Positions 6,186 through 61,387 are shown, numbered from the stretch's first letter. The stretch: DNA of 64,000 nt from an uncultured Desulfobacteraceae bacterium (GCA_903839535.1 CAIMCT010000153.1:1-64000); one strand, 5' to 3'. Notes: a model not told the origin generated them from the letters alone. A program made the numbers and translations.

Positions 6186-9100
6186 ATGACGGAACGCCCT
6201 TTGGCATCGAAGCGTATCAGAAAAAACTTTGGCAAGATTAGTAAAATTGTTGAAATTCCCGATCTTATTGGTATGCAACGGGAGTCATTTCGGCGGTTTT
6301 TGCAAATGGATGTCCCAGCGGACAAACGCAAGGATATCGGGTTGCAGACAGTTTTTAATTCCGTATTTCCGATTAAGGACTTTACGGGGAGCGCCTCTCT
6401 TGAGTTTGTTGATTATCGTTTTGCAGAGATCAAACACGGTGTTGAAGAATGTATCCACAGGGGCATGAGCTATGAAATTCCTGTAAAAATCACAGTCCGC
6501 CTGCAAGTTTACGATATGGATAAAGAAACCGGTAAATCCACTCTCAGGGACATCAAGGAACAGGAAATTTATTTCGGAACAATTCCTTTGATGACGGAAA
6601 AAGGGACTTTTATCATAAATGGTACTGAGCGGGTTGTGGTCAGCCAACTGCATCGCTCCTCCGGTGTATTTTTCGATCACGACAAAGGAAAAACACATAC
6701 CAGCGGCAAGGTGATTTACACATCTCGTATTATTCCGGTTCGGGGTTCCTGGATTGATATGGAAATTGACCCTAAGGATATTGTGTATATCCGTATTGAC
6801 CGTCGCAGAAAATTTCCGGTTACATTGCTTTTCAAGGCATTTGGCTATACGCCAGAAGACCTCCTGTCATATTTTTACGAATCTGAAAAAGTTATTGTGA
6901 ATAGAGATCTTTTGGTCAGCCGCTATTTTAAAGCGTTTAATGAAGAATTTCTGAAAGGTTCCCGGGCGACCCAGGATGTGATAGACCCCAATACCGGAGA
7001 GGTCGTTGTCAAAAAAGGAAGGGTGTTTACCCAGCGAATACTCAAGCGAATGAAGGTCGATAAACTGGATGCCATTCCCATTACCCTTGAAGAGCTTTAT
7101 GACAAAATTATAGCTACGTCCATTCTGCATCCTGTCACACTTGAGGTGGTTGCAAGGGCCAATGAAACTGTCAGTGAGGACTTGCTGAGTCGATTAACTA
7201 AAGCGGGCATTACAGAGTTTGAAATCCTGTTCATTGATGGAACAACCATAAGCGATTCGATTCGAAAGACGCTGATTTTAGACAAGGTCCAGTCCAAAAA
7301 AGAAGCCCTTCTTGAAATCTATCGCAGGCTTCGCCCGGGTAACCCTGCAACGCCTGAAGTTGCACAGGATTTTATGGATCATCTGTTTTTTAAATCCGCA
7401 TTTTATGATCTTTCCAGTGTGGGCAGACTTAAAATCAATCAGAGTTTGGGAATAGACAGCAATATCGATCTGCGGATTCTGCGCAAAGAAGACATTTTGT
7501 TAACCGCCAAAACCCTTATCAGACTGCGAGACACTCAGGGAGTTGTGGATGACATTGATCATCTCGGCAATCGTCGGGTGCGGGCGGTGGGTGAATTGCT
7601 GGAGAACCAGTATCGAATCGGATTAGTCCGTATGGAGCGGGCCATCAAAGAGAGGATGAGCCTTCAGGAGGTTGATTCCCTGATGCCGCACGATCTGGTG
7701 AATCCCAAGCCCGTGTCCGCCGTGGTTAAGGAATTTTTTGGAACTAGCCAGCTTAGTCAGTTTATGGATCAAACCAATCCGCTCTCTGAAACAACACACA
7801 AACGCCGTCTCAGCGCACTGGGCCCTGGTGGGCTCACCCGGGAGCGTGCTGGATTTGAGGTTCGCGATGTTCATCCCTCTCATTATGGCCGTATTTGCCC
7901 GATTGAAACGCCCGAGGGACCCAATATAGGGCTGATCGTCTCGCTGAGTACATATGCCCAGGTGAATGAATATGGATTTATCGAAACTCCATACCGGGTG
8001 GTGTCTGATGCTGCGGTCACCAGTGATGTGCGGTTTCTAAGCGCCTTTGATGAAAAGTCTCATGCCATAGCTCAGGCCAATGCAGCCATGGACAAAAATG
8101 GGAGTTTTACCGAGACGGAAATTAACTCCCGGGTTGCCGGTGAGTTTACGATGGCGAAACGCGATAATATCGCGTTAATGGATGTTTCACCCAACCAGCT
8201 AGTCAGTGTTTCTGCATCGCTGATTCCGTTTCTGGAAAATGATGATGCGAACCGTGCGCTTATGGGCTCCAATATGCAGAGACAGGCCGTACCGCTTCTG
8301 GTTAGTCAAGCACCTCTGGTCGGAACAGGCATTGAAGGGGTAGTCGCCAAGGATTCGGGCGTGGCTGTGGTTGCCAAGCGGGATGGAGTTGTCGAGGATG
8401 TTGAAGCGGACCGCATTGTTGTTCGCCACGATGTGATGGTTCAGAATGCCGACCAGGAGATATTTTGGCCGGTTACTATCTATAATCTGTCCAAATTTAT
8501 CCGATCCAATCAGAATACTTGTTTCAATCATCGGCCAATTGTAAAAAGGGGTCAGCACGTCAAGGCTGGCGAAGTTATAGCCGATGGGCCCGCCACAGAC
8601 AAGGGCGAGCTGGCGCTGGGCAAGAACGTCACGGTGGCGTTTATGCCCTGGGGCGGGTACAATTTCGAAGATTCCATTCTCGTTGGTGAACGTCTGGTTC
8701 GGGAAGGTGTCTATACATCCATTCATATTGAAGAGTTTGAATTGGTCTCAAGGGATACCAAGTTGGGCAAAGAGGAAATTACCCGTGATATTCCCAATGT
8801 CGGGGAAGATGCCCTGAGAAACCTGGATGAGAGTGGGATTATTATGCTGGGGGCGGAGGTTGTGCCAGGCGATATTCTTGTTGGCAAAATCACACCCAAG
8901 GGCGAAACTCAGCTTTCTCCCGAAGAAAAACTTCTTAGGGCCATTTTCGGTGAAAAGGCAGGAGACGTTAAGGATACTTCCTTGAGGGTGCCGCCGGGGA
9001 TTCAGGGAATTGTGATTGATGCCAAGATATTTTCCAGAAGAGGTGTGGATAAAGATGACCGGACACGGAACATTGAAGACAGTGAGATAGCTTTTTTGGA

Positions 9101-10316
9101 ACGCGACATGAAGGACGAGCTTCTGGTGATCAGTGAAGTTGTTCAGTCAAGGGTGTTCAGCCTGATCAAGGGCCAGGTTTGCAGCGTGCCGTTTAGAAAA
9201 GGAAAGAAGGTGTTGATTCCAAAAGGAGTGCTGATTGATGATGAGATCATCGCGGATATCTCCATAGATCAGCTTGAGGGTATTGTGCTGAACAGTCAGG
9301 AAATATCAGAGCAGATTAACCAGATATTGGTGCAATACCGGGAACAGTGCGCTCATTGCAGGAATAATTTTGAAAGACAGGCCACCCGGTTTGAAAAGGG
9401 AGATGACCTGGCCCCCGGTGTCATCAAAATGGTTAAAGTGTATGTAGCCATGAAGCGCAAACTCTCCGTAGGGGACAAAATGGCTGGCCGCCATGGAAAT
9501 AAAGGCGTTGTTTCCCGAATACTGCCTCAGGAAGATTTGCCCTATTTTGCCGATGGAACCCCAGTGGACATGGTATTGAACCCGCTGGGCGTGCCTTCTC
9601 GAATGAATGTAGGGCAGGTACTTGAGATTCACTTGGGCTTTGCTGCAAAAGGCCTGGGTGATCAGATCAACAGCTTGGTTGAGCAAAAGAAGTTGAGCGA
9701 TCTTCGGGATAAATTCGCCAAAATTTTTTCATCACCGATGCAGGAAGATTCCGAAATTCGAAATCGGGTTGCCGATATGTCCGATGACGATCTGCTTGGT
9801 TTCGCCGCACAATTCAAGCAGGGAGTTCCCATGGCGACACCGGTTTTTGACGGTGCCAAGGAAAAAGAAATCAAGGATTTGCTTCAGGAGGCCGGATTGG
9901 ACAGATCCGCGCAAAGTACGCTGTATGACGGGCGGACCGGGGAGCCTTTTAAGGAAAAGATCACGGTTGGGACCATGTATATGCTGAAGCTCCACCACTT
10001 GGTTGACGATAAAATCCATGCCAGGTCCATTGGTCCGTATTCACTGGTCACACAGCAGCCATTGGGGGGGAAAGCACAGTTCGGAGGTCAGCGTCTGGGA
10101 GAAATGGAAGTGTGGGCAATGGAGGCGTATGGAGCTTCCCATGCACTTCAGGAATTTTTGACTGTGAAATCCGATGATATGGCAGGAAGAACCCGAATGT
10201 ATGAAAAGATCGTAAAAGGTCAAAATTCGCTTGAACCCGGTATTCCAGAATCATTTAAAGTTTTGACCAATGAATTGATGAGTCTGGGATTAGACGTTAC
10301 GCTGCTCGAAGATTGA
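6186..10316 (+). CDS. rpoB: RNA polymerase subunit beta
   Basis: [68 protein letters not shown]. Confidence 0.99.
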
Positions 10317-10467
10317 TGACTGCGTAAGAGACTGTTCGCTGCGCTATCGACAAACCTTTTCGCAATAATAACTGGCAATAGCTTCAAAGTTTTTCGCGTT
10401 GCGGATGGCATGGAGATTCAGATTCTAACGCCATACGGTTTCAGATAGAACAATAAGGAGAGAATTT

Positions 10468-13400
10468 TTGGAAACGCTATACGATTTTTTCGCTAAACCC
10501 ATGGATCCCAAACGGTACACAGGTGTACGAATTGCACTGGCATCTCCGGAGCAGATACTAAAATGGTCCCACGGTGAGATAAAGAAACCGGAAACCATTA
10601 ATTATCGAACGTTTAAACCCGAACGCGATGGGTTGTTCTGCGCAAAAATATTTGGCCCTACAAAAGACTACGAATGTAATTGCGGAAAATACAAACGAAT
10701 GAAACACAGAGGTGTCATTTGTGAAAAATGCGGTGTGGAGGTCATACAGTCCAAAGTCCGCCGAGAACGCATGGCGCATATTGAGCTGGCTTGCCCCGTG
10801 GCGCATATCTGGTTTCTCAAAAGTCTTCCCAGCAAAATCGGTAATCTGCTGGATCTGACGCTCAAAAACCTTGAAAAGGTTCTGTATTTCGATAGTTATA
10901 TCGTCATTGATCCGAAAGAGACCCCTTTGGTGCGCGGCCAGCTTCTTTCGGATGATAAATACCGTGATGCTCTTGAGGCATTTGGTCCCAAATTTGAAGC
11001 CGGCATCGGTGCAGAGGCCATAAAAACTCTGCTGGATGACATTGACCTTCAGACGATTTATCAGGAGCTTCGCGTCGAAATCCGCACAAGCAATTCATCT
11101 GCCAAACGCCAAAAAATGGCTAAACGGTTGAAAATCGTGGATGCATTCAGGCGATCCGGCATTGATCCAACCTGGATGATTATGGATGTCATTCCTGTAT
11201 TGCCTCCGGACCTGCGGCCTCTGGTTCCCCTTGAAGGTGGACGTTTCGCAACTTCCGACCTCAACGATCTATATCGACGGGTCATCAATCGGAACAACCG
11301 GTTGAAACGCCTGATCGAACTGCGGGCCCCGGATATCATCATTCGAAATGAAAAGCGCATGCTGCAGGAGGCTGTAGATGTACTTTTTGACAACGGCCGG
11401 CATGGGAGGGTCATAACCGGAACAAATAAACGCCCGCTGAAATCGCTTAGCGACACGCTGAAGGGAAAACAGGGTCGTTTTCGCCAGAATCTGTTAGGAA
11501 AACGCGTGGACTATTCCGGCAGAACGGTTATTACCGTGGGTCCGAATCTCCGGCTTCATCAGTGTGGTCTTCCCAAAAAAATGGCGCTTGAACTTTTTAA
11601 GCCTTTTGTCTATTACCGCCTGGAACAAAAGGGGCTGGTGCAAACGGTCAAAGGTGCCAAAAAAATGGTTGAAAGTGAGGACCCCCAAGTTTGGGATACC
11701 CTTGATGAAGTGGTGCGCGAGTATCCGGTTATGTTGAACCGTGCGCCCACGCTCCACCGGCTGGGAATTCAGGCTTTTGAACCGATTTTAATTGAGGGAA
11801 AAGCGATTCAGTTGCATCCGCTTGTGTGTACGGCCTTCAATGCCGATTTTGACGGCGACCAAATGGCGGTACACATACCTCTTTCGGTAGAATCTCAGAT
11901 TGAAGCCCGCATACTCATGCTCTCCAGTAACAACATCCTTTCACCCGCAAACGGGAGTCCCATCATCGTTCCCAGCCAGGACATTGTTCTGGGCATTTAT
12001 TATATGACCCGCGAGGTCGCGGGAGCCAAGGGCGAAGGTATGTTGTTTGCGGGTCCCGAAGAAGTGAGATCGGCTTATGACACCGGAATTGCCGCCCTTC
12101 ATGCCGGGATAACGGTGCGTATTCATGGAAAACGTCTTAAGACAACCGTGGGCAGAATGCTTTTGTGGGAAATCATGCCCAAGGATACGGTGATGGTGCT
12201 TCGTCGCGTCATGACGGCGACACGCGAAGAAGCCCTGCAGGTAAAGGAAGAACTTGGTGATGACACTTCATTTGTGGCATTGGTCCAAAAGTATTCTCAG
12301 CATCCGGACAAAGCACACAAGGGACTGATCGGTCGGCTTAGAAGCGAGGAGTTCAAACGGGTATTTCCGGCAACCGAAGAAGAAGCTGACGTGTTGTTTT
12401 CGTTGAACCCCGGCGATACCAGCGAGATTATGAGCTTTGATGAGGCTTACCATATTTTTGAAGTCGTTGACCGTATGCCGGAAATTCCTTTTGAAGTAAT
12501 TAATAATGTGATGGATAAGAAGTCGCTCCGCGACTTAGTGGACTACGCATACAGGAACCTGGGGCCGAAATCCACTGTTATTCTGGCGGATCGGATTAAA
12601 GACATTGGCTACCGATATTCGACTGAGGCCGGTCTTTCCATTTCAATTGACGCGATGATTATTCCGGATGCAAAAGCAAAAATATTAAAACTTGCCGAAG
12701 AACGGGTCAAGGAAATTGAAAAGCAATACACGGAAGGGCTGATCACACCGGGCGAAAAGTATAACAAGGTCGTCGATATTTGGGCCAAGGGGACGGATGA
12801 TGTAGCCAACGAAATGATGGAAGCCATGAAAAAGGAAATCATTTTTCCTGTGCAAGATTGTATCGAAAAATGGGTCAAAGATTTAGCCAAGGAAATGATG
12901 AATGCCAAGAAAAAGGAGGACATTCACGATGTGCAAGCAATAATAGTGCAACTTGTCGAAGAACGGCCCAAGAATATCGAAAAGAATTATATCGAAGAAT
13001 TGAATGAACTGGATAAAAAATTCCCAGAGTACTACAAGTCAAGAAATGGATATAGTGAAAGATATGATAAGGCTAAGGCTATGATTGGGAGCAAAAAAGA
13101 TGTAGCCAGCGAAATGATGAAAGTTATGGAAACTGAGATTAGTTTTGTTGCTAAAATATTGAAACTTGCTGAAGAACGAGTTAAGGAAATCGAAAAACAA
13201 TGCACGGAAGGTTTGATTACATCGGATAATAAGAATAACAAGATCGACGGTATCAGGAAGGATGCCGAGTATGCTGTGACCGATATTTTGTTAGAAGCCA
13301 TGAAAAAAAATGGATCCTCTATGGAGGAAAGCCTGAATCCAATTTACATGATGGCCGATTCGGGAGCTAGGGGCAGCAAGGATCAGATGCGCCAGCTTGC

Positions 13401-51368: not shown

Positions 51369-51474
51369 TATACTGCAAAGGGGTATAATCTGCATTTTTG
51401 AACCTCCACCCCAACCCTCCCCCGCTGAGAGAGGGAGTTTATGGAAAGTTCAAATTATACCCGTTAGCAGTATA
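51369..51474 (+). repeat. Family 1 MITE-like repeat, copy C (intact)
   Basis: TATACTGcaaaggggtATAATctg...gaacctccaccccaaccctcccccgctgagagagggag...aaATTATacccgttagCAGTATA. Confidence 0.75.
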
Positions 51475-51737
51475 TTTGCGGAAACCTGAGGCGCGGAGGT
51501 AGCCAGAAAAATTCCATCACAAAATGCTGCACAATGAGACAGTCTTCGCCATCCAGCACCGCCCGCAGTGGGATGGGATCACCACCGTCATCCTGCCCAT
51601 AAAAATGAGAATATAGATAAAATTTCGCATTGGCTTTTTGTGATAACATGGGTATGGTAGCTTTCATGATCGGAGCATGTACCTCATGTTAATCGACTAA
51701 AAAATATGCTGCCAGAACACACAGGGGATAAAAGAAA

Positions 51738-53140: not shown

Positions 53141-54934
53141 CTATCTTCTATCAACAAACATCCGAATAATTTTTCCAATCGAATCATCAAGTTGATCGAA
53201 AAGGTATTCGAGTGATCCTTGAGATGTCTCGTTGGCGGTTGGTGCGAGAGACAAAACTCCCTGAACAGTGTTGCTTGGCATTCGGACGAGGTCTTCAGGC
53301 GCGCCATAAGGCACATTGACCTGCCAATATGGTCGCTCTCCAGGATGGATAATCCATAACTGATCTGCAACATTTCGAAGCCCTATACTCTCAAAAAGTT
53401 GACTCTGATATTTCTCTACATCATTCCAATGTACTTCCAGAATTCGTGAAGTGTACTTGCAGTCGATGACTATACCATATTCAAGGTTCGGAGACTCTGT
53501 TGTTCCAGATAATATTTCGATGAAAATATCAGGCACTAATGGTTTACTGCCCCTTAATGTTGAACGAATAAATCTACTACCGATCTTTTCAGCTTCGGTT
53601 TTTGTGAAAAAGGTTGGTTCGTAGTGAATCGCGACTTTGAAACCGTTTTGGGCCAAAAAAATTATGTGATCACCGGAATTGATATTTAAAGCATATCGAT
53701 CTTTGTTACTTGTAGGATTCAGGAAAGGTGCTTCTGTTGTAGCAGATAAACATAAACGTTTTTTTAGGTAAAAAAAGATTAAGAGAAAAATCCAGTATTC
53801 GTAAAGTTTTGAAGTGTCCTTGAGCTTTTGTTCAAGTATTCCGTTATCAAATATCAAACCGTTATTGCTTATGAATTCGATCATTACAGAGTAGGCATGC
53901 GAATAAAAGAGATCTCTCATGAATTTTGGCGTTGGCTTTAAATCAAGTTTGGATTTGCTGACTCCTTCAAGGAAAACAAAACGTTTTGGATATAGGGATA
54001 GCCGTCGCTGTATTTTGCGACAAGAATCAATTGATCTTTCCAATTGAGTTATTCGTGGAGCATCTTCAATGTCCCATAACGAGATTTTTCCTTTTGGAGC
54101 AAGCCTCCTCCATTGTTTATCCCTTTTTATGGTATCAATTTGAATTTGAGCTTTACTTGCAACGAGAGACGATCGATCGGCAACCCAGTTACACAATGCA
54201 GATATCTGCCGATTTTCCCAAATATCAAAAGTTCTTTCTTTTCTTTGAATTTCACATTGAAATGGCCTTCTATATCCTTTTTTTCTGGGATCTGATCCGC
54301 TACGACTCATTTGTGCAAGCGATTTTGGTGTGAAATTTTCTTGGCCATAGCAAAGCGATTGAATATTCATAACCGTTAAGCGATTGCCAGGGTCTCTGTT
54401 GATTCGTTCGAGGATAGGCTCAAATTGGCTCAGGAATTGATTGATAAGGAGATATTCTTCAACACCGGATAATTCATCGACAGACTTCGTGGCTACCCAA
54501 CCGAAGAAAGAGCTGGTTTTGGAGACAATATCAAGCAGGAGCCCCCTGGATATTGTAGAAATATCCTGGAGCATTATTTTGTACTGTTGCCTGGTGATTT
54601 TACTGGGATAACAGAAAACTTCAACCAAAAAGACCGCCTGCCAAATATTCGAATCTTTACTTCTTACTTCGAGAACAATTTGTACCTTGCCTATACAATT
54701 TGAGAGGTATTGAGATTTTTCCCATTCCATAAATTGTCTATAATTCATTGCATCAGGAAGCTGTTTATCCCCAATATGAAGACGAAAATCAACATGCTCG
54801 GGATAATCTTCTATTGTAAAGCTCAAGGAATCCGTTTCTTCCAGTGCTTCATTCAATAAAAATACTCGATACGTTGATAAATCAATCTGTTCAGAAACCA
54901 GATTGTTGATACCCTTGTGGATGGTAAACAGCAT
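53141..54934 (-). CDS. McrC-like/DUF2357-type PD-(D/E)XK nuclease
   Basis: Candidate catalytic core VPDIFIEILSG...YGIVIDCKYTSR; 6 nt downstream of an McrB-like AAA+ gene. Confidence 0.72.
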   Translation of the reverse strand: MLFTIHKGINNLVSEQIDLSTYRVFLLNEALEETDSLSFTIEDYPEHVDFRLHIGDKQLPDAMNYRQFMEWEKSQYLSNCIGKVQIVLEVRSKDSNIWQAVFLVEVFCYPSKITRQQYKIMLQDISTISRGLLLDIVSKTSSFFGWVATKSVDELSGVEEYLLINQFLSQFEPILERINRDPGNRLTVMNIQSLCYGQENFTPKSLAQMSRSGSDPRKKGYRRPFQCEIQRKERTFDIWENRQISALCNWVADRSSLVASKAQIQIDTIKRDKQWRRLAPKGKISLWDIEDAPRITQLERSIDSCRKIQRRLSLYPKRFVFLEGVSKSKLDLKPTPKFMRDLFYSHAYSVMIEFISNNGLIFDNGILEQKLKDTSKLYEYWIFLLIFFYLKKRLCLSATTEAPFLNPTSNKDRYALNINSGDHIIFLAQNGFKVAIHYEPTFFTKTEAEKIGSRFIRSTLRGSKPLVPDIFIEILSGTTESPNLEYGIVIDCKYTSRILEVHWNDVEKYQSQLFESIGLRNVADQLWIIHPGERPYWQVNVPYGAPEDLVRMPSNTVQGVLSLAPTANETSQGSLEYLFDQLDDSIGKIIRMFVDRR

Positions 54935-54940
54935 TTATTC

Positions 54941-57421
54941 CTATACCATAGAATAATTGAAAAAATCCATTGCGATCGGAGCTTCAGCAATGAGTTTGAT
55001 TCTTGATGAAGACCTGTTGTAATTTCTCAATTCTGTTATTTCGATTAATTTGAAAAGCATTTCTCTGAATTGCGTGGAGTGTCCTCTCAACCCGGGCAGT
55101 ATCTTTTGAAAAATTGCATAATCCATAGCCTCTTCATCGGACTCCATAACCCCTCTGGCATTTGAAACATATCTGCAAATGGATTTAAATGTTCTCGGTG
55201 ATATTCTCAATCCCATCGCGGAAAGAAGACATTCAATTTCGTTTATGCTCTTTAATACATATTCCTGTACAAGTCCGGGTTCCTGTGACCATGAATAGTA
55301 AATGCGTGTTGAAATGGGTGTGCCAATTGCTGAATTGTCTGGTTGGTGCTCATTCCATGAGTTGATATTTGATAATGCTACAGGTCCCATTTCAATAATA
55401 TGCACACGATCAAGAACTTTAGGGCTAAAGAACTTCGTGGTTTCATCAACATTTACAGTACCACAAAAACGAAGGGACGAAGGAAGATGAATCTGGTGGA
55501 AGTCTCTGTATGGATCATCAATACGGCAGAGATTTTTATCGAAGAATATTATCTGTCGATCCTCCATGGGTGCTTGAAGCAGAACAAGAAAATCTGCAAA
55601 GTATTGCTCGACATAAGATAAATTCATCTCATCCAAACAACAGATGTAAACGCCATTTTCAGGTTCAAGCGACTCACTGTGTGAAGCGACAAGGAATTGG
55701 TAGAAACCACTACTTGATGGTTGAAAACGCCCGTCAAGAGCATTGAAATATCCTATCAATTCCTGGCTGTCCAGCCAGCCGGGCTTAACTGATATGGAAA
55801 GATAACGCATTTTCCCTTCAGCACTCCCATGTAAAGCTTGAGAATAAAATCGTGGAAGTGATGACTTACCGATACCGCTTGGGCCTGTCAATATATTGAA
55901 ATTCTCGGATTTGGTACAGACATGGAAGTTTCTTAGATCTTTTTCATTATACGAAAATCCGGAACCATTAACCCATTTTATCCAGTAATCCATAAATTCC
56001 GATTCAGATAACGACTTTGGAATTCCATGAAAAGGTAAATAAGGACAAATATTGATAGTTTCAGTTAACTCTTTTTTCTTTTCTGTCAGTACAGTTTCAT
56101 CTGATTTATCCGCCGTTGTGCGAAATCCCATTTCTTGGAGAATCGGCATTAAGCCAATCAACTGAGCAACAATTTCATCACGGTTTTGATTCAGTTTACC
56201 TACAAGGTTGGAAAAATACTCCTGTTTTCCTATAAATTCTTTTTCTTTTTTTAATATTTCATCTTCTCTTTGCCGAAATAATTCATCAAGTTCAGTTTTT
56301 TTATTATTTAGAGTCCGTTCATATTCTCGAAATTTCTCTTTTTTTTCTGTCTCAATTAACGATTGAAGGGCATTAAAGGATTTATCTAAATCCGAAAGTT
56401 CCTTCTTTTTTTGAAATATCTTTTCATTTGCTTGGCGATCAAGGTCTTTCCTATTCTCTTCTATGTGATAATCGACTCGTTCTTTAATTCGATCCTGAAG
56501 TAATGCCTTTAATCGCTCTTCCTCGAGCAAGGTGTCAAGCAATTCACGAATGATTTTTTCGTTTTCCTCAACTTTATTGGCAATTTCCAGAATGCGATCT
56601 TTATTCTTGTGAACCCTATCAAGACCTGGATCTGCACGGTGTATCTCATCGACCAGCCTGGTAAGAGCTTGTTTATCAGCCCGTGACCATTTCAACTCCT
56701 TTACAACTTCACTAACTACCATTTTGTCAGATCGCAGATCAATTTTTTTTCCAATATCAGTCGATAGTACTCTTTCAAGTCTATCCTTTGGAATAAAGGT
56801 ATATTCAATTTCAATTTGGTTTCGTTCATGAGTTTCAGTGTAAATTATCATTGGAACAACACGTGGTTGAGCTATATTAATAAACTCCTGATATTTCATC
56901 TTTCGTAAGGGTTGACCTCCCCAGCAGGGAGAAAGATTAAGAAAAACGGCAATCTTTTCATCTTTAATCGGTTCTACTCCCGTTGCTGTGAAGGGGCCAA
57001 TTACTAATGTACCAAATCTGCAAAAGACAGCCCCATTTCGAATTGGATGATTACATTTTAGCCGCCCGGTCTCAACAAGAGATGTTGGAGAAAGCGAGGC
57101 ATCCGTTCCTACGATTTCAGCAATATAACTTTCAGCTCCTGTCACAGTTCCCAAAGAAGCCTGAAAAAAATCTTTATTGGGATCAGACTTGTCAAAACCG
57201 TTGGCTGGCTCTATCTCAACAGAAATAATTCTTCCGAGAGTGGTGTAGCCTAAGTCTTCATTTCTCACTTTCCACCAAACTCTGCCCCTATTATAGAATT
57301 CTGATGGTTCTATTTCGTCGCCTGATATATCCGCTATAGGTTTCAGCGTACAGAAATTTCCAGTTGCTGTCGGCCAATAAGACTCATGCACTACTGCAAT
57401 AATTCTATCACCAATATCCAT
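54941..57421 (-). CDS. McrB-like AAA+ NTPase with long central coiled coil
   Basis: Walker A NILTGPSGIGKSSLPRF; Walker B ICCLDEMNLSYVEQYFADFL; GTVNVDETTKFFSPKVLDRVHIIEM; coiled coil EENEKIIRELLDTLLEEERLKALLQDRIKERVDYHIEENRKDLDRQ.... Confidence 0.78.
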   Translation of the reverse strand: MDIGDRIIAVVHESYWPTATGNFCTLKPIADISGDEIEPSEFYNRGRVWWKVRNEDLGYTTLGRIISVEIEPANGFDKSDPNKDFFQASLGTVTGAESYIAEIVGTDASLSPTSLVETGRLKCNHPIRNGAVFCRFGTLVIGPFTATGVEPIKDEKIAVFLNLSPCWGGQPLRKMKYQEFINIAQPRVVPMIIYTETHERNQIEIEYTFIPKDRLERVLSTDIGKKIDLRSDKMVVSEVVKELKWSRADKQALTRLVDEIHRADPGLDRVHKNKDRILEIANKVEENEKIIRELLDTLLEEERLKALLQDRIKERVDYHIEENRKDLDRQANEKIFQKKKELSDLDKSFNALQSLIETEKKEKFREYERTLNNKKTELDELFRQREDEILKKEKEFIGKQEYFSNLVGKLNQNRDEIVAQLIGLMPILQEMGFRTTADKSDETVLTEKKKELTETINICPYLPFHGIPKSLSESEFMDYWIKWVNGSGFSYNEKDLRNFHVCTKSENFNILTGPSGIGKSSLPRFYSQALHGSAEGKMRYLSISVKPGWLDSQELIGYFNALDGRFQPSSSGFYQFLVASHSESLEPENGVYICCLDEMNLSYVEQYFADFLVLLQAPMEDRQIIFFDKNLCRIDDPYRDFHQIHLPSSLRFCGTVNVDETTKFFSPKVLDRVHIIEMGPVALSNINSWNEHQPDNSAIGTPISTRIYYSWSQEPGLVQEYVLKSINEIECLLSAMGLRISPRTFKSICRYVSNARGVMESDEEAMDYAIFQKILPGLRGHSTQFREMLFKLIEITELRNYNRSSSRIKLIAEAPIAMDFFNYSMV

Positions 57422-58055
57422 AAATTATTCCTAAAAACAGGTTATTGAGAGAAAACAACGATTATTACCTTGCCGTTATATTTTGAAAAGATACCATCTG
57501 TAACCGAACTATACCATATCAAGTGGGATATCAAAAGCCCCCAGTATCAGCCAACAAGAAAAGTAACTCTGCATGCGCGAAATATCCTCTTCATTGACCA
57601 GGTTGATAAAACGTCTCCTGCGTCAAATTGAGAAGGTTAAAGAGTCAAACAAAAATAGAATCTACTGGAGAATTAATAACATGAAAATATTTTCAGAAGC
57701 AAGCAGCCAAGCAAAAAACAACAGCTTCTCTATAAAACGTGATCATTTTGACAGATAATAAGTACTCGTGCAAGATAACAGAAGAGCTGCTGAAAAATAA
57801 AATAAGCAAATTTACCTAAAAAGCAGGAATTTCCAGGGAGTAACCAGTGTCCGTTTTTTCAATTTTTTCATGATCATTTTGGCGAATAATCCGAGATCAA
57901 GCAAGCCTTTGTCTCCAGGTAGTTTTTGATGCAAAACCTCCCCCTTTTGGTCATTTTTTGGACAAAAGCGGGGTGGAAAATAAAAAGTAGCTTAAAAATG
58001 AGCGAAAGGTAAGAAAATAGTAAACTTAAAATATTAATAGCGTCTCCAGCGTCCC

Positions 58056-61283: not shown

Positions 61284-61387
61284 TATACTGCGAACGGGCA
61301 CAATCTGAACTCTCCATAAACTCCCTCCCCAGCGGGGGAGGTTTGGGTGGGGGTTCAAAACTGCAGATTATGACCGTTGACAGTATA
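61284..61387 (-). repeat. Family 1 MITE-like repeat, copy D (inverted relative to B and C)
   Basis: TATACTGcgaacgggcacaatct...ggggttcaaaactgcagattatgaccgttgaCAGTATA. Confidence 0.75.

Follow-up and report, generated by a model that had tools for sequence, protein, structure and literature searches.

Among the McrB GTPases, Bell et al. (2024, PMC11090510) described one branch in which an NxD signature, usually followed by E or D, is strictly conserved; a large part of it, a clade distinguished by long coiled coils, constitutes the CoCoNuTs. As of 2024 no NxD McrB had been characterised, and we came across no experiment on one. According to the same study, Type I systems consist of two genes, one for a protein composed of an OB/CSD module, a coil and the GTPase, the other for a McrC homologue with an Ig-like N-terminus, which in Types I-B and I-C resembles RhoGDI. 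In Type I-C (CnuB plus CnuC) a YTH-like domain is frequently, though not universally, found between OB domain and coil (PMC11090510).

The pair of genes presented here was found in an uncultured Desulfobacteraceae bacterium and is, with good probability, a mobile two-gene system of the McrBC type which belongs to the NxD branch and has the architecture of a Type I CoCoNuT. This assignment is based on the NxD motif, the GTPase tree, the domain models, the catalytic residues and the match to the published anatomy. It would make the pair a new example of a recently described kind, leaving the range of known system kinds unchanged, and would extend the CoCoNuT-like group to Desulfobacterota, Poribacteria and Planctomycetota. 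Within the window, i.e. the whole stretch of 64,000 nt that was analysed (GCA_903839535.1 CAIMCT010000153.1:1-64000), the two ORFs are located on the minus strand: the first, for 826 aa, at 54941–57421 and the second, co-directional and downstream, for 597 aa, at 53141–54934, with a gap of 6 nt. These ORF calls bear out the gene coordinates and the spacing given in an earlier note on this DNA. The note had read the locus as a variant McrBC of a coiled-coil NTPase and a DUF2357-type nuclease, a reading that motifs, Pfam matches and tree all support.

The 826-aa protein is McrB/CnuB-like, with a beta-rich N-terminus, a coiled coil and an NxD GTPase, as judged from the ORF, PADLOC and hhalign. 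Its McrB-type AAA+ GTPase domain (residues 481–826; 54944–55981, minus strand, as are all features below) is recognised by the family profile and hhalign, and it contains Walker A (GPSGIGKSS, residues 513–521; 55859–55885), Walker B (LDEMN, residues 596–600; 55622–55636) and the stretch GTVNVDETT..FSPKVLDR. Both Walker motifs are thus present as the earlier note had given them, and the catalytic residues, among them D, E and N of Walker B, are invariant in seven homologues. The note had considered this Walker A atypical, but our motif survey shows the form GxSGxGKS/T to be usual in the NxD branch. It had also taken the sensor region for McrB-type; the motif is there, but it reads N657-V-D659 (55445–55453) and is one residue shorter than the classical NxxD, which had been overlooked. 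In the motif survey NxD occurs in every homologue with a recognisable motif, the only exception being a canonical McrB (L040_1, NTAD). The distance from Walker B to NxD is 59 aa, compared to 53 in L040_1 and 45–65 in most relatives; the helical insert at this place, which defines Type I-A, is absent from the 826-aa protein. Pfam AAA models match weakly. The best solved structure found in the PDB with a seven-member family profile is E. coli McrB (6hz4, E 5e-5), to which the GTPase domain also aligns by hhalign (E 8e-7). A strong match was obtained with the PADLOC model PDC-M26A (E 5.8e-43). Since all of the NxD coiled-coil GTPases that were tested match this model, it carries no information on the subtype, and the likeness to the phage defence candidate PDC-M26, for which a literature search found no paper, is limited to the GTPase gene, because no PADLOC model matches the partner.

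Upstream of the GTPase domain lies a charged region poor in proline and glycine (residues about 223–430; 56132–56755), assigned as coiled coil from its composition (E 15%, K 13%, L 13%, P 1% and G 2% over residues ~225–430) and from a heptad scan, which exceeds shuffled sequences at residues 329–358 only. The coil expected from the first reading is therefore present, but with about 200 aa it is longer than the ~150 aa assumed there. The N-terminal part was modelled with AlphaFold2 (residues 1–262, 20 natural sequences in the alignment; mean pLDDT 86, pTM 0.80). Two small beta domains are predicted, in keeping with the earlier description of a beta-rich N-terminus unlike the reader domain of E. 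coli McrB. Domain 1 (residues 1–108; 57098–57421) is an OB-like barrel, with the strand order b1-b2-b3-a-b4-b5 of OB folds at residues 6–105. The Foldseek matches of the N-terminal model are weak (E about 0.01–0.05) yet repeatedly OB-fold proteins, namely Streptomyces SSB, agrin NtA, baculovirus LEF-3 and phage SSBs. Antibodies and riboflavin synthase also came up (TM about 0.1–0.2) and were discarded as generic beta likeness. Domain 2 (residues 109–222; 56756–57097) forms a second barrel in the AlphaFold2 model, whose order b-a-b-b-b-a-b-b at residues ~100–220 is possibly compatible with a PUA/YTH-like fold. Neither Foldseek on the N-terminal model nor Pfam nor the PDB sequence search gave a YTH or EVE match for this domain, Pfam and NCBIfam returned nothing usable for the module as a whole, and its profile found no match among PDB sequences. 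Compared with the copy from the same genus, domain 2 is less conserved (70% aa identity) than domain 1 (81%).

The 597-aa partner is McrC/CnuC-like, with Pfam matches above cut-off to DUF2357 (E 4.4e-11) and PDDEXK_7 (E 9.4e-6). Its AlphaFold2 model, of moderate confidence (pLDDT 73), consists of an N-terminal beta-sandwich (residues 1–110; 54605–54934), a helical DUF2357 bundle and stalk (residues ~113–360; 53855–54598) with long helices at 239–271 and 286–313, and the PD-DxK nuclease domain (residues ~370–530; 53345–53827). RhoGDI (5fr1) was among the top Foldseek matches, although weakly by its E value (prob 0.98, E 0.018), and McrC was not among the top 50. The relation to E. coli McrC is also faint by hhalign of the partner family, which aligns the nuclease core alone (probability 8%), and a PDB sequence search with the partner profile found no match. 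The catalytic site is nevertheless complete: E379, P468-D469 (53528–53533), D491 and K493 (in D491-C-K493; 53456–53464) are invariant in 18 partner homologues. Hence the PD..(E)..DCKY core recognised earlier is a full PD-DxK site, and the DUF2357 assignment is confirmed. As the nuclease is intact, the published rule asks for no second one, and no second nuclease gene was found beside the pair in the window.

The phylogeny against McrB clades, proposed earlier as a check, places the variant in the NxD branch, which is split from NxxD McrB with 100/100 in both GTPase trees. The larger of these comprises 62 rows with E. coli McrB as the outgroup. Here, the window clade, its distant kin, the OB-coil systems from prophages, Klebsiella and Desulfobacterales, and the L161/L201 pair form one group (99/96). 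With weak support (80/22 and 80/96), this group is joined next by the Type II/III-like CoCoNuT systems, a label given by gene content (genes for a UPF1-like helicase, CARF and DUF2357): all have the helicase, among them the relatives L041, L042 and L062, some a recognisable DUF2357 gene and one a CARF/sigma-54 regulator. In a first, sparser tree the window clade was nearer to the Type II/III and methyltransferase groups, and when sampling was denser it joined the OB-coil systems, now better supported. The details of the placement therefore vary with the sampling; the nine nearest rows may or may not form a separate clade (p 0.36).

Of the named systems, Type I-C appears to be the closest one, a likeness drawn from the predicted domains and the published anatomy. 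Both have two genes only. In both, the GTPase protein combines a predicted OB/CSD-like N-terminus, a second domain, a coil and an NxD GTPase that lacks a helical insert between Walker B and NxD, and the partner combines a predicted Ig-like sandwich resembling RhoGDI with DUF2357 and PD-DxK. They may differ in the second N-terminal domain, which is frequently YTH-like in Type I-C and here is a beta domain without a YTH match. Type I-A shares the two genes and the coil and predicted OB/CSD-like domain on the GTPase, but besides the helical insert the pair also lacks the zinc ribbon (CPxC; there is no CxxC in the partner) and the coil/CSD insert of the I-A partner. Types II and III have genes for a UPF1-like helicase and HEPN proteins in the operon, both of which are absent from the pair and from its neighbourhood in the window. 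The NxD signature and the coil region of the GTPase protein are CoCoNuT features. We would give about one chance in four to a more specific view, in which the window clade (Desulfobacterales and Poribacteria, close to which stand Planctomycetota and an alphaproteobacterium) represents a Type I subtype that has not been listed so far and its second barrel an undescribed reader domain with a target of its own; the clade is separate from the OB-coil clade of prophages and Klebsiella.

Rather unlikely, in our judgement, is an ordinary McrBC directed against modified cytosine, with an exchanged reader domain that binds modified double-stranded DNA, a mode of action identical to that of E. coli McrBC, and with the coil as a mere spacer. 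E. coli K-12 McrBC, a Type IV restriction system, indeed shares with the window pair the McrB-type GTPase, a partner with DUF2357 and PD-DxK, and the order B then C; the complete nuclease site and the lack of an RNase gene beside the pair fit this explanation as well. The two differ, however, in the NxD instead of NxxD motif, in the long coil and in the additional beta-sandwich of the partner, and the ADAM/DUF3578 reader domain of the K-12 system is missing. Together with the 100/100 split from NxxD McrB, the replacement of the E. coli-type reader by an OB-like module argues against it.

If the pair works as a Type I CoCoNuT, a mechanism can be outlined from the literature, in which OB/CSD and YTH-like modules are predicted to bind RNA or single-stranded nucleic acid, and from the structures of E. 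coli McrBC (cited in PMC11090510), which suggest a hexameric ring and a stalk. The conserved sequences make it probable that the pair binds and hydrolyses GTP and that its nuclease is competent. Located at the end of the coil, the beta module would bind foreign or altered nucleic acid, upon which the GTPase might assemble into hexameric rings. The DUF2357 stalk would then enter the ring and stimulate GTP hydrolysis, which may drive translocation and bring the PD-DxK domains together, and these would cut, most likely DNA. In the end, phage or other incoming elements could be restricted; an antiphage activity of the pair is what we infer. RNA sensing by CoCoNuTs is a proposal, and few versions would be simpler to express for testing it than a cassette of two genes whose nuclease is intact.

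The locus itself has marks of a mobile cassette. Its GC content is 38%, whereas the window has 46% and the adjacent comEC gene 48%. Two out of nine genomes of the family have the system, with flanks that are not shared. The alignment to the same-genus copy covers 53142–57455 and otherwise a dispersed repeat alone; comEC, the common element of the relatives compared at this locus, is about 22 kb away from the system in the same-genus relative, and the flanks again differ. In the other relatives scanned, the neighbours are unrelated metabolic, transport or signalling genes. Conserved housekeeping synteny, which the earlier note had named as speaking against its reading, was thus not found: homology is confined to the two genes, and in the relatives examined these have other neighbours. 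In comparison with the same-genus copy, the GTPase gene has a dN/dS of 0.13 and the partner gene one of 0.11, with the lowest value, 0.08, in the GTPase and DUF2357 domains, so the pair is, judged by these ratios, under purifying selection. Low GC, patchy presence and unshared flanks, together with homologues on IMG/VR contigs and on plasmids next to tyrosine recombinases, suggest that it behaves as a maintained, horizontally moving cassette.

It is improbable that the two genes are a co-opted or housekeeping McrB-family pair without a role in defence. Purifying selection would suit such a role, as would the missing defence island (the pair has no recognised defence gene next to it, either in the window or in the handful of relatives whose neighbouring genes were scanned), and there is a precedent in PcdA, co-opted for cell division in Staphylococcus (PMC10602043). 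However, the patchy occurrence, the low GC content and the unconserved neighbours speak against it, and here the McrC partner, which PcdA lacks, and the GTPase motifs, which PcdA lost, are both intact (PMC10602043). Least probable of all is a methyltransferase-associated, non-CoCoNuT NxD McrBC that lost its methyltransferase, since, despite the common NxD motif and an intact PDDEXK_7 nuclease as in L036 and L068, grouping the window clade with these systems was rejected (AU p 0.001), their stretch from Walker B to NxD is mostly 75–102 aa against 59 here, and the methyltransferase of their operons has no counterpart adjoining the window pair.

A palindromic repeat of ~101 bp flanks the cassette at a distance, with inverted copies at 51369–51475 and 61287–61387, and one copy was seen near the same system in L027. 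As ends of a mobile unit these repeats were rejected: they have 42 matches in the genome and stand off from the cassette by about 1.7 kb on one side and 3.8 kb on the other, and so belong to a general dispersed repeat, which looks like a REP-like element. At the start of the window there is a cluster of tRNA genes (Thr, Tyr, Gly, Thr; 318–891), followed by tRNA-Trp (2435–2510).

Kin of the pair are spread over Poribacteria, Planctomycetota and one alphaproteobacterium. Full-length homologues were found in the same genus (L027/L047, 81% identity), in a genome of the same order (L028, 45%), three times in Poribacteria (31–35%) and in one Planctomycetota and one Neomegalonema genome (27%); an additional planctomycete copy is L193. 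Full-length homologues in several phyla and the dN/dS of 0.11–0.13 together indicate that the two-gene match is not due to chance. The family is rare: not one of 369 gammaproteobacterial genomes contained a full-length member, and in 289 genomes of the Neomegalonema class the already known one was the sole full-length member. A fragment of the system at 97–98% identity is present on a short contig of another MAG, binned as Bacteroidales (L048), a case of either misbinning or recent transfer. In a planctomycete protein (L209:751-2925, G1161) the same beta-plus-coil N-terminus occurs without a recognisable Walker A. Its GTPase is decayed or lost, which recalls Druantia I/II, the 'Type IV CoCoNuT', for which an inactivated CnuB has been reported (PMC12458937).

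More distant two-gene kin with OB domain and coil are located on IMG/VR contigs (predicted prophages) and, with tyrosine recombinases next to them, on plasmids of Klebsiella. The window GTPase is matched by 163 Klebsiella plasmid records. In one of the plasmids, of IncF type (L153, NZ_CP107354.1), the related OB-coil pair at 7611–11938 is likewise situated beside tyrosine recombinases and is annotated merely as an AAA ATPase and a hypothetical protein.
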